From: Tetragenococcus koreensis
Lineage (GTDB): Bacteria; Bacillota; Bacilli; Lactobacillales; Enterococcaceae
Direction: 5' to 3'
Assembly (NCBI RefSeq): GCF_003795145.1
Contig: NZ_CP027786.1
Location: 1,488,001 to 1,552,000 of the forward strand
Length of the DNA stretch: 64,000 bases
Position 1 is the first letter of the stretch. The number at the start of each line of letters is the position of its first letter. The notes below the pieces were generated by a model that saw only the letters and a list, made by a program, of their open reading frames with translations, was not told the origin of the DNA and ran no database searches. Both the position numbers and the translations under genes were made by a program. Below, piece by piece: positions 8,614-61,912 of this stretch.

Positions 8614-11034
8614 TTATTCCAGTGGTTCATCTTGATAGCTATCATCAGCAGGATCTTGAGGTTTGTCAATTAAGACTTTACGTGGTTTGCTGCCTTCTGA
8701 TGCACCTACAACATGGTTGGCTTCTAATTCATCAACTAAACGGGCTGCTCGATTATAACCAATTCTAAAACGACGTTGGAGTAAAGAAACGCTGGCTGTT
8801 TGCATGTCAACAACCAATTCCTTGGCTTGATCATACAACTCGTCTTCAGATTCTTCTTGCTTATCTTTGGCCACTTCTTCATCCGTTACCATCATTTTTT
8901 CTTCATAGTTAGCGCCTTGTTGATCAGTAACAAATTTAACGACTTCTTCCACATCATGGTCAGATATAAAGGCGCCTTGAACACGAATCCCTTTATTTTC
9001 ACCCATAGGTAAGAACAGCATATCTCCTCGGCCAAGTAGTTTTTCCGCCCCATTTGAATCAATAATCGTGCGAGAATCGGTCCCGCTAGATACGGCAAAG
9101 GCAATTCGCGATGGCACATTTGCCTTGATAATTCCAGTAATAACGTCAACGCTTGGACGTTGAGTTGCTAAAATCATGTGTATACCTGCTGCCCGCGCCA
9201 TTTGCGCCAAGCGGGTAATGGCATCTTCAACCTCATTACTGGCCACCATCATCAAATCAGCCAATTCATCTACAATGACCACAATAAATGGCATTGTTGG
9301 ATATTTTTGGTCTTCTGTTTGATTTTTTTGTTTGATCATTTCGTTGTAGCCAGTGATATTGCGTACCCCTGTTGCGGCAAATTTTTCATACCGTTCTTCC
9401 ATTTCTTTGACCACTTTTTGTAAAGCTTGCGCAGCTTTTCGCGGATTTGTTACCACGGGGGTCAAAAGATGAGGGATCCCGTTATATACGTTTAACTCTA
9501 CCATTTTCGGATCGACCATCATTAGTTTAACCTCATGAGGTTTTGCCTGCATTAAAATACTCGTGATGATGCCATTAATAGCAACCGACTTCCCACTACC
9601 AGTCGAACCAGCGACTAACAAATGGGGCATCTTAGTTAAATCAACAGTCTGTATTTTTCCAGAAATATCTCGTCCCAATGGAACTTCTAGGATATGATCA
9701 GAATGAGCAGGCGTTTCATCGTTCATTTCTCTAAAAGCCACAGTGCTAACTGTTTCATTAGGTACCTCAATACCAATTAATGATTTGCCTGGAATAGGTG
9801 CTTCCATACGAATATCTTTAGCAGCAAGTGCCAGAGCAATATCATCGGAAAGATTGACAATTTTGCTGACTTTAACACCAATTGCCGGTTCAATTTCGTA
9901 TTTAGTCACAGATGGCCCTAAACTAGCCTTGACCACTTTAGCATTGACACCGAAACTTTTGAAAGTCTTTTCCAGGATTGCAATATTACTTTCAATTTTT
10001 TTATATTCACCGCTTTGATCCGTCGGTTTGGGCTGCGATAAAAGAGTTGACGGCGGTAATTCGTAATCTTCATCTTCTACTTCTTGTGAAATTTCAAATT
10101 CCAGAGGTTTACCGTCATCTACTGGTTCTTCTGTTGATGGCTCATTTTTAGCGTCATTTTCTGTTTTTTTACTAGCGGCCTGACTTTGTTGGTAACTATC
10201 AATAGGAACAAAACTTAATTGTTCTGGCTCGCCGGTAGCTTCTTCTTTTTGCTCCTGTGCTAATTTTTCTGCCTCAGACAGAGAACGAACTTGATTTTTT
10301 TCTTGCTCTTTTAATTGTTGTAGTGCAGCTTCTCGCTCTTGTGCTTGTTTTTGTTCTTTTTCTTCCTTTTTCGCTTGCTTTTTGGCTTCTTTATCCGCTT
10401 GTTTTTTCGCTTTTTTCTCTGGATTACCTTCAATCAACTTTTGCATTTTTTCTTTTACTTCATGTAAAAGTTCTAACAGTTGCTGGCTATCCAGTGAACT
10501 AACAAAGTAACCACCCAGAATAATCAAAAGAACAGCAATCACATAACTGCCGATTTTTGCAACTAAGAAAAATGTTGCTTGATAGAGCAGTGCACCTAAC
10601 ATGCCACCGCCAACATTAGCACTTACTTGATCACCTTGGATGTCACTTAATAAAATTCGCCAAGTTGTTAATAAAATCTGCGGATCATCTGTTTGAATTT
10701 TACCAAATAACTGTGCATGGAAAAAAATTAACACACCTAAATAAATCAGAAGTCCACCAACAATCTTTCTTCCATGAGTTACTTTAGCCTCATTATTTTT
10801 GACCATTACCCATAAACCATAACCTGCTAGCAAGACACAAAGGAAGGGATAAGTATTTCCGCCAATAATCCGAAAACCATTTGCTATTAGCGTTCCAAGA
10901 AAGCCTAATTGAAATAATGCAAATACTGAAAATAAAATAAATAAAAACCCAAATACAATCAGCATTAATTTTTCTTGCTGGCGCATTTGTTTTTTTGTCT
11001 TACGTTTTTTTGAGCGTTTCTTTTTTTGTGCCAT
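8614..11034 (-). CDS. ftsK: DNA translocase FtsK/SpoIIIE
   Basis: This 806-residue septal DNA pump moves chromosome ends across the closing septum. The N-terminus is basic, followed by four or five membrane segments (about residues 25-190), then a charged coiled linker rich in Lys/Glu/Gln, an alpha-beta motor domain and a C-terminal gamma winged helix ([21 protein letters not shown]) that reads KOPS-type sequences. Walker A is GSTGSGKS (about 475-482) and Walker B is [12 protein letters not shown]. The ATG chosen has GAGGG five bases upstream; an ATG nine codons earlier lies directly after the -10 element and lacks a binding site. It is monocistronic. Confidence 0.96.
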
Positions 11035-11059
11035 GTCATCCCTCTTTTCATTCTTATCC

Positions 11060-11088
11060 ATTATACAAAAAAAAAGAAGGGAACAAAA
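11060..11088 (-). promoter_or_regulatory. Promoter of ftsK/spoIIIE
   Basis: A perfect TATAAT lies at 11060-11065 with a 17-base spacer to TTTTGT at 11083-11088. The A/T run of the spacer is at the same time the T-tail of the terminator of the upstream transporter operon. Confidence 0.6.
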
Positions 11089-13343: not shown

Positions 13344-13378
13344 AATAAAAAAGTCCTTTAGCCAAATGGCTAAAGGAC
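13344..13378 (-). terminator. First T-box terminator
   Basis: Stem GTCCTTTAGCC / GGCTAAAGGAC followed on the minus strand by TTTTTTATTTTT, directly after the first T-box sequence. Confidence 0.92.
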
Positions 13379-13617
13379 GTCAATTACGCGGTTCCACCTT
13401 TATTTATTCATTCTTCGCAGAATAAAACTCAATAAGTCATCAATCAATAACTTTGGCTATAACGGGCTACCCGGACTTTTCTACTTTTTCTTCAAAAAAT
13501 CGACTCCAAGATGTGTTTCACCATAATTTCATTGTCTCTTCTCACCTGCCAGAGACTCTCTTAAAACAAAACTAAAGTTACTCTTCTTTTCGATGTCGTT
13601 TATTTAAGTTGTTCCTC

Positions 13618-16114: not shown

Positions 16115-16388
16115 GAGTAAAAGAATGCTATTTTGTTCCTCGAAATCTTGATAATGAGTAAAGAAAACTAGTTTTGTTACTCAAAAATAAAATAACGAGT
16201 AACGGATAGCTAATTCGTTACTCGTTAATTATTATAAACCACTAAAAAACATCTAATTTGCACGCTAATGTTTAATATTGAGCAATGAACAGCGGATTCG
16301 TTACTCGTTAATGCAATATTGAGTAATCGTTTAACAATTCGTTACTCAAAAATACATTAATGAGTAATAAAAAGCAAAAACGTTACTC
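16115..16388. repeat. Array A: alternating GAGTAA / TTACTC words, 41-bp period
   Basis: The word GAGTAA starts at 16115, 16156, 16197, 16280 (GAGCAA), 16321 and 16362. Its reverse TTACTC starts at 16136 (TTCCTC), 16177, 16218, 16301, 16342 and 16383. Each forward-reverse pair spans exactly 27 bp with 15 variable bases between, and pairs repeat every 41 bp; words thus alternate at 21 and 20 bp. The middle interval is 83 bp and holds a decayed pair near 16240-16265. The array lies in the 452-bp gap between the convergent msmX-like and topB genes. It codes for nothing and its function is unknown. Confidence 0.93.
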
Positions 16389-19005: not shown

Positions 19006-20142
<1,137 letters not shown>

Positions 20143-20324
20143 TCAATATAGATTCTGAAATATCTACGATTTGAAGGTCGCAACTTTTCCAGTAATTGCC
20201 ATTATACAGCAGAATCCAAAGAATTTCACGTACGGATTCTTAACTCAAATAATCCAATATAAATTTTTAAAAATTTTACAACTTATAAAATAGTTGCTGA
20301 GCAGATTTTTCTACACTAAAAAAT

Positions 20325-20588
20325 GAGGAAGGAAATGGCGATCTTTTACTCGATAACTGAAAGTTGAGGAAGAAAATTGTAAAGCATTACTCATTAAATC
20401 AACAACGAGGAAGGAAACCAAAATCTATTACTCAAAAACAACTAAAAAACTATTGAAAAAGTTAAAAATAGCTGAAAATGAAGAGGAAAATGGAGGTCTT
20501 TTACTCAATATTTAAAAGATAAGTAAGAGAACAATAAAACGTTCCTCAAAAAATTAATAACGAGGAAAGAAAACAAAATTTGTTACCC
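20325..20588. repeat. Array B: alternating GAGGAA / TTACTC words, 41-bp period
   Basis: Forward GAGGAA starts at 20325, 20366, 20407, 20483 and 20562 (AAGTAA at 20521). Reverse TTACTC starts at 20346, 20387, 20428 and 20501, with TTCCTC at 20542 and TTACCC at 20583. Pairs are 27 bp long and repeat every 41 bp in two triplets; the forward word at 20483 is 3 bp out of step. Forward and reverse words differ at the fourth base in most pairs, so the arms are not full complements. The array starts 198 bp upstream of the mnmA start codon and lies beyond the terminator of the preceding operon. It is the only content of the 640-bp gap apart from that terminator. Confidence 0.9.
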
Positions 20589-20717: not shown

Positions 20718-20754
20718 CAAAAAGACTTGCAAATCATATTTTGCAAGTCTTTTA
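20718..20754 (-). terminator. Terminator of the cysteine desulfurase operon
   Basis: Stem AAAAGACTTGCAA / TTGCAAGTCTTTT with an eight-base loop and a T tail on the minus strand, 16 bases after the DUF1831 gene. Confidence 0.9.
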
Positions 20755-20769
20755 ACACTAAGCTATTTT

Positions 20770-21108
20770 TTACGCTTTTTCAAACAAACCACGATCTATA
20801 AAACCGTCCATCAAAAAATAAAACTGTTCTTGCAACACTTCATTCTTATTTTTAAAAATGTTGACTGCTTTTAAACCGTTAGCTGTAGTCACTGACATCT
20901 TTATTTTTTGGATATTTTTATCTACAGTAATTTTCAACTTGAGACCTTCTTTACTCTGTGGAGTTGCTTCAAGGGGTCGAACCAGTTGAAAATTGCCACT
21001 AGATGTTTCGGTAAATCCATTGTCACGCAAAGTATATTTTTTAGCGGTTGGAGCTAATTTATATGTAGTATCTGCGCCTAAAACTGTTGTTTTTTCTTGA
21101 AAAGCCAT
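20770..21108 (-). CDS. DUF1831 family protein
   Basis: This 112-residue soluble protein (start MAFQEKTTVLGADTTYKLAP) matches the DUF1831 family, small proteins of unknown function typically encoded directly after a cysteine desulfurase in lactobacilli and enterococci. It lies 56 bases downstream of that gene and ends at a shared terminator. There are no membrane segments or cysteines. A role in sulfur delivery is suggested only by the conserved neighbourhood. Confidence 0.8.
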   Translation of the reverse strand: MAFQEKTTVLGADTTYKLAPTAKKYTLRDNGFTETSSGNFQLVRPLEATPQSKEGLKLKITVDKNIQKIKMSVTTANGLKAVNIFKNKNEVLQEQFYFLMDGFIDRGLFEKA

Positions 21109-29877: not shown

Positions 29878-29912
29878 AAAAGTTATTTGGCGCAAGGGTT
29901 ATGATACAAATA

Positions 29913-30011
29913 AAAATATCCGAACTATATTTGATGAAATTCGCTAAGTCGTGCATTTACGACGAGTCCTGCTTGAGTGCAGAAATAATTTCTCTATAGT
30001 TCGGATATTTT
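29913..30011. repeat. Long-armed branched inverted repeat after telA
   Basis: Perfect 17-base arms (AAAATATCCGAACTATA at 29913-29929 and its complement at 29995-30011) enclose 65 bases that contain three smaller palindromes: GTCGT-ACGAC (29948-29963), CTGC-GCAG (29969-29982) and AGAAAT-ATTTCT (29981-29993). Either strand could fold as a four-way junction. T-rich tails follow on both strands, so it may be a bidirectional terminator of telA and the convergent permease gene, a small RNA, or a small non-autonomous mobile element. Confidence 0.75.
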
Positions 30012-30030
30012 ATTATAAAAGGGCCCTATA

Positions 30031-31434
30031 TCACAGGTCCTCGTACTTTATATCAGCGCTTTTTTTATTCAAATCGCTGTGCTGGTAGCCATAACCAAAA
30101 TAAATAAGCAACCCTAAAAGAAGAGCAATAATAAAGACTGTCCAAGTAACTCTATCCAAACGTAGCATTAAAAATACACACGAAAGTACCGAAATAATCG
30201 GCAATACTGGGACAAATGGCACTTTAAATTCACCTTTTTTTGGTTCACCCAACATCTTACGCAAACGGATAACACCCAGAGCCATTAAAGCCAGGCAAGC
30301 TAAGGCGGTAATATTGGTTAATTCAGCTAAAATATTCAAAGGAAAAGCAGCAGCAAAAAATAAACCAATTGCTCCAGCAACGAATGTCGCATTTTTAGGC
30401 GTTCGACGCTTTTCATCAATTTGTTGTAAAAATTTCGGCAACAAGCCATCTTTACTAATCGAATAAATGAGTCTTGCCAAGGAATACAGCATGGAGATAG
30501 TGACTGTTAGTAAAGTTAAAATAGTTCCCACAGAAATCACTGAACCGATAAATCCTTGATTGATATAACGCATAGCAAAAGCTACTGGATCAGCGACGCC
30601 CAATTGAGTAAAGGGCACAATCCCTGTTAAAACTAAGGTCACAACCACGTATAAAACAGTAGCAATTAAAATGGATCCAATAATTCCTCGAGGGACATCT
30701 CTTTGCGGATTTTCGACTTCTTCAGCCGCCATCGAAATAGAGTCAAATCCTAAAAAGGCAAAAAACACTAAAGCAGCTCCGTTAAAAATCCCTTGCATAC
30801 CATAAGGTGCATAGGGCTGCCAATTAGCTGGTTGGACAAAGAATATGCCAACAGCGACAAACAAAATAATGACCCCAAATTTCACCCAAACCATTGCATT
30901 GTTTAACCGCAATGCTTTTTTTGCTTCTTGGGTAACCCATAACGTGACTAGGATCATTACCAATGCAGCAACTAGATCGATATAGGTGCCTCTTTCTGGG
31001 TTATAACCAGCAGTTAATGCTTGGGGTAGTTGGATTCCCCAGTTGCTCAAAAATCCTTGAAAATAGCCAGACCAACCTGCAGCAACAGAGGAAACTGCCA
31101 GCATATATTCACAAATCAATAACCATCCAGCAATCCAAGCCGTCAATTCACCAAAAACGACATACATATAACTGTAAGGTCCACCTGATACCGGTACTCG
31201 TGAAGCAAATTCAGCAAAACAGATCCCGTTTAAAATCACAACTAATGCTGCAATAATAAAGGAAATCATGGAAGCTGGACCCGCATAATCTGCCGAAGCT
31301 TGTCCGGTCACAACGAAAATCCCCGTACCAATAATTGCGCCGATTCCTAGCATGATCAAATCTTTTAATTTTAATTCCCGTTTCAATGTATTGACCGAAT
31401 CTTTTTTTATTGGTCTTTTCCGGAAAACTTCCAT
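30031..31434 (-). CDS. APC family amino-acid permease (cationic amino acid transporter type)
   Basis: This 467-residue membrane protein has 12 predicted helices and the APC signature early on (LGIGAIIGTGIFVVTG). The segments FAEFASRVPVSGGPYSYMYV and FFAFLGFDSISMAAEEVENP match the CAT subgroup (YfnA/YhdG type), which moves amino acids by proton symport. The exact substrate cannot be told. It is transcribed alone, with array C starting 149 bp upstream of its start codon and converging on telA. Confidence 0.9.
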   Translation of the reverse strand: MEVFRKRPIKKDSVNTLKRELKLKDLIMLGIGAIIGTGIFVVTGQASADYAGPASMISFIIAALVVILNGICFAEFASRVPVSGGPYSYMYVVFGELTAWIAGWLLICEYMLAVSSVAAGWSGYFQGFLSNWGIQLPQALTAGYNPERGTYIDLVAALVMILVTLWVTQEAKKALRLNNAMVWVKFGVIILFVAVGIFFVQPANWQPYAPYGMQGIFNGAALVFFAFLGFDSISMAAEEVENPQRDVPRGIIGSILIATVLYVVVTLVLTGIVPFTQLGVADPVAFAMRYINQGFIGSVISVGTILTLLTVTISMLYSLARLIYSISKDGLLPKFLQQIDEKRRTPKNATFVAGAIGLFFAAAFPLNILAELTNITALACLALMALGVIRLRKMLGEPKKGEFKVPFVPVLPIISVLSCVFLMLRLDRVTWTVFIIALLLGLLIYFGYGYQHSDLNKKSADIKYEDL

Positions 31435-31582
31435 TCTTGTCCCTCCATTTTTTCAATTCTTGTTCATTATATAGATTTTTCTTTTCACTTTCAAACTAAG
31501 GTGTAGTGGAGTAGATATGAAAATGTAAATTAGTTCTCTATATTTGAAAAATAACGGACTAGTTTTACATATCAATGCTATT

Positions 31583-31777
31583 TTGGTGAGACATCAAATG
31601 ATGTAGCTCCAATCTGCAAAAATATTGGGGGTACATTTAACGATATACCTCCAATCCATACGTTATCGGTGGCAACTTTCTCGATGTACCTCCAATCCAT
31701 ACGCTATCGGTGGCAACTTTCTCAATGTGCCTCCAATCTGCAAAATATTGGGGGTACATCAAACAATATACCTCCAA
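31583..31777. repeat. Array C: alternating GGnGG / CCTCC words, 41-bp period
   Basis: Core GGnGG starts at 31585 (GGTGA), 31627, 31668, 31709 and 31750; core CCTCC starts at 31606 (GCTCC), 31648, 31689, 31730 and 31771. Steps alternate 21 and 20 bp (one 21). The full half-sites are TTGGGGGTACAT-like and ATGTACCTCCAA, giving 30-bp hyphenated palindromes with six variable bases in the middle. Forward cores have G or T, never A, at the middle base, while the reverse core always reads GGAGG, so the two arms differ consistently. Units three and four are near-identical. It lies between the phosphohexomutase terminator and the APC permease promoter. Confidence 0.93.
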
Positions 31778-31892
31778 TAATTATGGATAATGACGGCATG
31801 TATGAGAAAAAACAAATAATTTTCCAGTTAAGATAACCATTTCTGTTCCTATAAAGACTCAATTCAATAAATTCTATACTTGATTTTCTTTT

Positions 31893-31945
31893 TTAAAAAA
31901 AATCTGAGTCATAAGAAATGTCAATTTCCCTTGCTCAGATTTTTT
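31893..31945 (-). terminator. Terminator of the phosphohexomutase gene
   Basis: Stem AAAAAATCTGAG / CTCAGATTTTTT with a 25-base loop and a long T-run on the minus strand, 25 bases after the gene. Confidence 0.85.
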
Positions 31946-49812: not shown

Positions 49813-50016
49813 GGGAATTCTGTGATGTACGAGTTATCCATTTTTAGTATTGACCGAACATTTTTATTGATATATTGGGATCTGTTAGGTGCCAGCGTTA
49901 GCAGCACGCCTTTTCATTTGGTAGCTCGACACGTTGGCCATGGAACCCACCTGCTTAGACTTTGCGGGATCAATACTCCAGGACAATAAACGGCATCTAC
50001 GGATATTACCCTTTTT
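49813..50016 (+). ncRNA. ssrS: 6S RNA (SsrS), RNA polymerase regulator
   Basis: A 204-base RNA starts seven bases after a strong promoter. Its ends pair with a closing stem (GGGAATTCTGTGATG against CATCTACGGATATTACCC with single-base bulges) followed directly by TTTTT. Inside are a largely unpaired middle region and a long imperfect apical hairpin built from ATTGAT / ATCAAT, TCT / AGA, AGGTG / CACCT and GCCAGCG / CGTTGGC. This rod with a central bubble is the hallmark of 6S RNA, which mimics an open promoter and holds RNA polymerase. Position near rarA agrees. Similarity was judged by structure and context only. Confidence 0.8.
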
Positions 50017-61648: not shown

Positions 61649-61912
61649 GGATAACAAAAGATAAAAACATTGTCTATCTTTTTAATCTTGGATATCAAAT
61701 CCTTGAAACGTTATCCATCTTTGCAACCTCGGATAACGTTTTGGCCTTTTGTTGTCCGTCTTTTGCTTTTTTCAGACCTTTTATGCTAATTTGCCGCTTT
61801 TTCGGATAACAAAAAGCAAAAATATTGTCTATCTTTTTAATCTTGGATATCAAATCCTTGAAACGTTATCCATCTTTGCAACCTCGGATAACGTTTTAAC
61901 TATCTATTATCC
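61649..61912. repeat. Array D: alternating GGATAA / TTATCC words, 41-bp period
   Basis: Forward GGATAA starts at 61649, 61690 (GGATAT), 61731, 61804, 61845 (GGATAT) and 61886. The reverse word TTATCC or TTGTCC/TTGTCT starts at 61670, 61711, 61752, 61825, 61866 and 61907. Pairs are 27 bp and repeat every 41 bp as two triplets 73 bp apart. Offsets equal those of array B at every reverse word and all but one forward word. The second triplet is nearly a copy of the first (155-bp offset). It lies in the 512-bp gap between trmB and the aldo/keto reductase; nothing else is seen there. Confidence 0.93.

Follow-up and report, generated by a model that had tools for sequence, protein, structure and literature searches.

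The window analysed here, a stretch of 64,000 nucleotides of the Tetragenococcus koreensis chromosome (G000:C1:1488001-1552000, part of a 2.73 Mb genome), carries four intergenic arrays, A to D (Table 1), in which short words recur in alternating orientation at a spacing that follows the helical repeat of DNA. Base pairing between the two arms of a unit is not kept at the level of the single unit, and in the sets searched the arrays are restricted to the salt-loving genus Tetragenococcus. On balance, we regard arrays A, B, C and D as probable landing arrays, helically phased, for a putative symmetric sequence-specific DNA-binding protein.

Four arrays in the window

Array B, the starting point of this analysis, consists of six 27-bp units with steps of 41, 41, 73, 41 and 41 bp. 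Such arrays are far beyond chance: the gapped pattern GAGGAA/TTACTC had three exact matches against 0.01 expected from shuffles and, with up to three mismatches, 15 matches against 3.6, a number reached in 0 of 100 shuffles. The preliminary description had listed four pairs of GAGGAA and TTACTC in B and stated that the same mismatch between the arms returns in unit after unit of B and C. The mismatch is real, but the pair is exact in only three of the six units (1 to 3), and a fourth is reached only by counting unit 4, which has GAAGAG in register, GAGGAA shifted 3 bp onward and TTACTC at its end. Unit 5 (AAGTAA/TTCCTC) carries the opposite mismatch and unit 6 reads GAGGAA/TTACCC, so the regularity was overstated for B. 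Part of it is also inherited, since the second block of three units copies the first in diverged form: outside the words, similarity is 0.71 within the unit pairs 1/4, 2/5 and 3/6 versus 0.42 for other pairings, and a 119-nt direct repeat in the region is in line with block duplication. The blocks of array D are near copies as well (0.78 alike by unit index). In array C the statement stands for all four full units, where the forward cores GGGGG, GGTGG, GGTGG and GGGGG (at 31627, 31668, 31709 and 31750) are each followed 21 bp later by CCTCC, GGAGG on the other strand.

Table 1. Arrays of the window and features adjoining arrays B and C.
Feature	Position	Strand	Remarks
Array A (type I, GAGTAA)	16115..16388	.	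units 16115, 16156, 16197, 16280, 16321, 16362; central step 83
mnmA, tRNA 2-thiouridine(34) synthase, downstream of B	19006..20127	-	NF001138, 498.7 bits
Promoter-like site between B and mnmA (GTGAAA, 17 nt, TATAAT)	20201..20229	-	consensus match only
Array B (type I, GAGGAA-rich)	20325..20588	.	units 20325, 20366, 20407, 20480, 20521, 20562
Array B centre	20434..20479	.	A-tracts about every 10 bp, separating two three-unit blocks
14-nt perfect inverted repeat, T-rich end	20720..20753	-	likely terminator of the DUF1831 gene by its form; absent from the terminator scan list
DUF1831 gene, upstream of B	20770..21108	-	PF08866, 145 bits
Array C (type II, ATYGGNGG/CCNCCRAT)	31582..31778	.	weak unit 31582; full units 31624, 31665, 31706, 31747
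Right module of type II element (AATTATGGATAATG...CTATAAAG...CAATAAATT)	31779..31900	.	approximate end
Array D (type I, GGATAA dialect)	61649..61912	.	3+3 units, central step 73

Arrays B and C both lie after the end of the upstream gene and upstream of a promoter-like site. Array B sits between mnmA and the DUF1831 gene, both on the minus strand, beyond the terminator-like repeat of the latter and before the promoter-like site of the former. Array A is flanked by convergent genes for a UgpC/MalK-type ABC ATPase and topoisomerase III, and array D is placed between trmB and an aldo-keto reductase gene. Repeated symmetric words upstream of promoter-like sites, as in B and C, are what one would see if the arrays were operators of an ordinary regulon, a reading that we find quite improbable: mnmA is without an array in some sister species, the neighbours that were read share no common function, and, with eight orthologous duplicates left out, 15 of 34 array sites fall between convergent gene ends, divergent starts flanking only two of the 34. 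Against a baseline of 12 convergent gaps in 70, which includes orthologous copies of one region, the excess of convergent gaps has P=0.004, a preference that fits tolerated insertion as well as function.

The window holds other repeats. A dispersed repeat of about 125 bp with inverted ends (AAATATCCGAACTATA) at 29907-30040, beside an amino acid permease gene, has 38 matches in the genome and a fold z of -5.2, and is likely a MITE. A 12-bp tandem repeat (10362-10412) lies within an 815-aa ORF (8614-11061).

Two word families with one geometry

Arrays A, B and D represent a family, type I, of which Tetragenococcus has at least 43 distinct arrays with 225 units by a laxer detector that includes the GAATAA and GGATAA dialects; eight of 51 arrays, near-identical orthologues, were removed before counting. 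A first, stricter detector gave 34 arrays in 39 sequences. The plan is mostly three units, a centre and three units, and the half-site has a core GAGKAA, GAATAA or GGATAA within AT-rich flanks (consensus approximately TATTGAGTAANGAAT). These word dialects differ between arrays, and several are present within one genome. In genome G097 a GAATAA-dialect array (L240, L241 and L242) is carried by a segment (3.3 to 5.8 kb) that occurs in three copies with 99% identity; by eye, it lies between transporter-like and pcp-like genes, close to transposase-like ORFs.

Array C is a member of a second, BOX-like family, type II, with the same 41-bp geometry and other words. At least 58 type II arrays were found in a sample of 60 loci, each made of two to 11 units spaced by 41 or 42 bp and, in three arrays, with one larger step; none was detected at loci L215 and L234. 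In a subset (for example, L176, L177, L185, L186 and L190), conserved end modules surround the variable 41-bp tandem. For array C, empty sites were seen, and the end of its right module is placed approximately. Words of a possible "type III", AGGGAGT/ACTCCCT, were read by eye at the mnmA site of T. halophilus and of G103.

In both families the cores lie 21 and 20 bp apart in alternating orientation, which gives the 41-bp period. Among the 43 type I arrays, the steps within blocks are 41 bp in 141 of 144 cases, and the larger steps are 73 (10), 82-84 (21), 102 (1), 104 (2), 114 (3) and 125 (1); those of 114 and 125 are probably 73+41 and 84+41, with one decayed unit each. At 10.4 bp per turn, the type I steps of 41, 73, 83 and 104 bp correspond to about 4, 7, 8 and 10 turns, and 33 three-unit blocks align without gaps over 137 columns. 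The A-tracts of 25 type I centres (near-identical orthologues L141, L168, L169 and L171 left out) have a power at 10.0 bp of 4.01 versus 1.51 (0 of 200 shuffles), and their phase is locked to that of the words (R=0.64 versus 0.09; 0 of 300 shuffles). Integral-turn spacing and phase-locked A-tracts, the marks by which a helically phased protein-binding array would be recognized, are thus both present. Because all the arrays are homologous, common descent rather than selection may account for their phase and steps, and the classes of steps are few. In a scan of the window for curvature-type periodicity, array B ranked in the top 0.5% at 10.25 bp and in the top 20% at 10.0 bp; array C gave no signal in the same scan.

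Base pairing and orientation of the arms

The preliminary description had argued that base pairing of the arms, in RNA or cruciform DNA, is not what is being kept, and had named as the check an alignment of many units, in which compensatory changes between the arms in relatives would count against this view. We found no compensatory change at the level of the unit among the units compared, 225 of type I and 252 of type II, and the steps and the A-tract phase follow the helical repeat; the argument holds, and DNA-level recognition is thereby supported. The arms differ at word position 4 in about 40% of the 225 type I units, and within arrays no coupling between them is seen for the word, for position 3 or for position 4. 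At the positions compared, 13 in type I and 16 in type II, pairing was nowhere in excess of that from re-pairing between arrays, near-identical orthologues (three of 58 type II and two of 34 type I arrays) having been dropped, and the paired fraction for the type II middle base was 0.319 versus 0.319. In both hairpin registers, covariation in the 33-block alignment was lower than in every one of 500 shuffles; as follows from the inversion of the words, more cells are paired in the true register than in slid registers. The variable-base pairs T-A, T-C, G-A and G-C of type I number 51, 12, 16 and 9 (Fisher P=0.10), and the same test across the linker gave P=0.29; both lean weakly to pairing, shared arrays being uncorrected. 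An apparent match of words that face one another over the 14-bp linker (P=0.001) proved to be an artefact of partnerless end words, a partners-only shuffle giving P=0.12.

Between arrays, the arms do shift together: both change from GAG/CTC to GAA/TTC, with r=0.76 at position 3 across the 43 arrays. Taken alone, this is a change of the kind that had been named as counting against the view; coupling between arrays, with none within them, fits identical half-sites better than a helix, and we read it as one half-site consensus per array, as for the half-sites of a symmetric protein.

Inverted words and a dialect common to both arms between arrays would also be seen if the arrays acted as RNA, each unit being a hairpin in a transcript, or as cruciforms in DNA. 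The minus strand of B (z -3.4) and the plus strand of C (z -5.5) gave better folds than their shuffles, which is usual for inverted words, and the plus strand of B did so weakly (z -1.7). Given covariation below the shuffles and no coupling of the arms within arrays, we reject pairing as the conserved property. With the frequent mismatch at position 4 added, and with B and C placed after the end of one gene and ahead of a promoter-like site, action as RNA or cruciform becomes very improbable indeed. An Rfam scan of the window found only a T-box leader (13370-13602) and 6S RNA (49814-50009), and the arrays matched no Rfam family.

A further suggestion, that the two orientations have slightly different roles, was not supported by the comparison of the families. 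The G:T ratio at the type I variable base is 39:79 in forward words (n=118) and 35:90 in reverse words (n=125; P=0.41), and of 20 arrays compared eight lean one way and five the other; the bias of B is shared by a few arrays, such as L151 (0.83 versus 0.00), and not by type I as a whole. The middle base of type II had been described, from array C, as G or T in forward cores and always A in the reverse complement. This is true of the four full units of C, but in 207 oriented units, nine of 55 arrays without clear orientation having been left out, T/G outnumbers A by 127 to 72 in one arm and A outnumbers T/G by 122 to 77 in the other, a weak majority that descent can explain. Asymmetry between orientations is a property of single arrays and not a general one.

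Distribution, conservation and turnover

A scan of an 84,980-species collection, made with type I words only, found the exact four-word pattern in 13 stretches, all from Tetragenococcus records. With up to two mismatches the type I pattern was present in seven of 105 genomes of the family, all of them Tetragenococcus, and the type II pattern in at least eight of 105, again only Tetragenococcus, G102 being absent among the matches listed. A profile of the three-unit block, R1, matched eight of nine Tetragenococcus genomes and had no match in G102; in 395 Lactobacillales genomes it had weak matches in seven genomes outside the genus, with E values of 1.8e-4 to 9.6e-4, which we take as chance. 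No type I array was found in viral contigs. In the collections searched, the arrays therefore appear to be restricted to Tetragenococcus, with none convincing outside it. G102 (L164), the most diverged Tetragenococcus genome, is without either array type (for type II, among the matches listed), which could point to a missing reader gene.

At a dnaQ-like site (neighbour named by eye) compared between G000 and G098, identity is 91.5% in the words (65/71) versus 66.3% outside them (124/187), and 84% and 79% in the coding flanks; array pairs were found by their words, so word conservation is biased upward. The excess is absent in array A (G000/G104) and in the G100/G101 comparison. Array A is 96.4% identical between G000 and G104, the words about as much as the rest, with flanks at 81% and 86%, which reflects either strong constraint or recent exchange. 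The interval that holds array B is about 477 bp here versus 38 to 144 bp in G101, G104, G097 and G098, and G099 and G103 keep a diverged array on the same 41-bp plan (by eye; in G103 also by the laxer detector). Since sites are gained and lost between species, no single array seems essential.

Variable presence of sites, together with dispersal in intergenic positions, is also expected of non-autonomous mobile or selfish repeats (MITE- or BOX-like) with no host role, whose words would be read by a transposase or copying enzyme or would be relics. In G101, two arrays separated by 6 kb agree at 87% over 253 bp and have dissimilar flanks, type II arrays have conserved ends around a variable tandem, and enrichment in convergent gaps is taken as a sign of parasitic repeats in PMC3049150. 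For type I, however, neither target duplication nor terminal inverted repeat nor partner transposase was found; most copies in any one genome have diverged strongly, yet words and spacing persist, and orthologous arrays persist across species with flanks about 80% alike. We consider this explanation possible though doubtful; it is the strongest rival and is compatible with a protein-covered array.

A putative protein reader

Under the preferred reading, that of a landing array for a symmetric DNA-binding protein, half-sites every 20 or 21 bp in alternating orientation would bring all words onto one face of the helix. A dimeric protein, or paralogues with different word preferences, would bind the words and might cover the array cooperatively along that face, helped by the A-tract-phased and presumably bent centre between the blocks. 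Such binding might in turn have an effect on the chromosome. In the few loci read, where the flanking genes are housekeeping genes, no binding protein or associated gene was seen beside the arrays. More speculatively, and in our view rather unlikely, the bent-centre arrays could form a chromosome-wide scaffold of Tetragenococcus's own, a sequence-specific counterpart of nucleoid proteins, each dialect having its reader among several paralogous proteins by which DNA at the ends of genes would be wrapped or bridged, with words and reader co-evolving.

Comparison with known systems

Dispersed repeats of this general kind are already known; in the openly accessible literature we found no prior description of a fixed helical pitch in two word families, a phased centre or dialects. 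The BOX elements of Streptococcus pneumoniae have a boxA-(boxB)n-boxC plan and are described with RNA folds and terminal inverted repeats (PMC3049150). Type II arrays resemble them in having conserved modules at both ends, tandem units that vary in number and a dispersed, intergenic, lineage-limited distribution (PMC3049150). There are also differences: the repeated unit of type II measures 41 bp, its inverted cores alternating at distances of 21 and 20 bp, and type I arrays depart further from BOX in a 3+3 layout that is mostly constant and in a centre of A-tracts.

In enterobacteria, REP/BIME elements occur between genes, frequently where genes end, as groups of short units whose orientation alternates; the REP units are palindromes of 20-40 bp able to pair. 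The arrays share the intergenic position and the alternating short units but are built of 6-8 bp words at a fixed helical pitch, and pairing is not kept. In parS sites and iterons, repeated sites are set for cooperative binding, as proposed here; unlike those, the arrays occur chromosome-wide near housekeeping genes, with no replication or partition gene seen adjacent and with several dialects per genome. Bacterial short interspersed repeats are commonly interpreted as folding palindromes, whereas here two word families share one helix-pitch geometry. A protein that read these words would represent a new type of sequence-specific binder of long DNA arrays, and the arrays would then offer a system for studying the co-evolution of reader and word.
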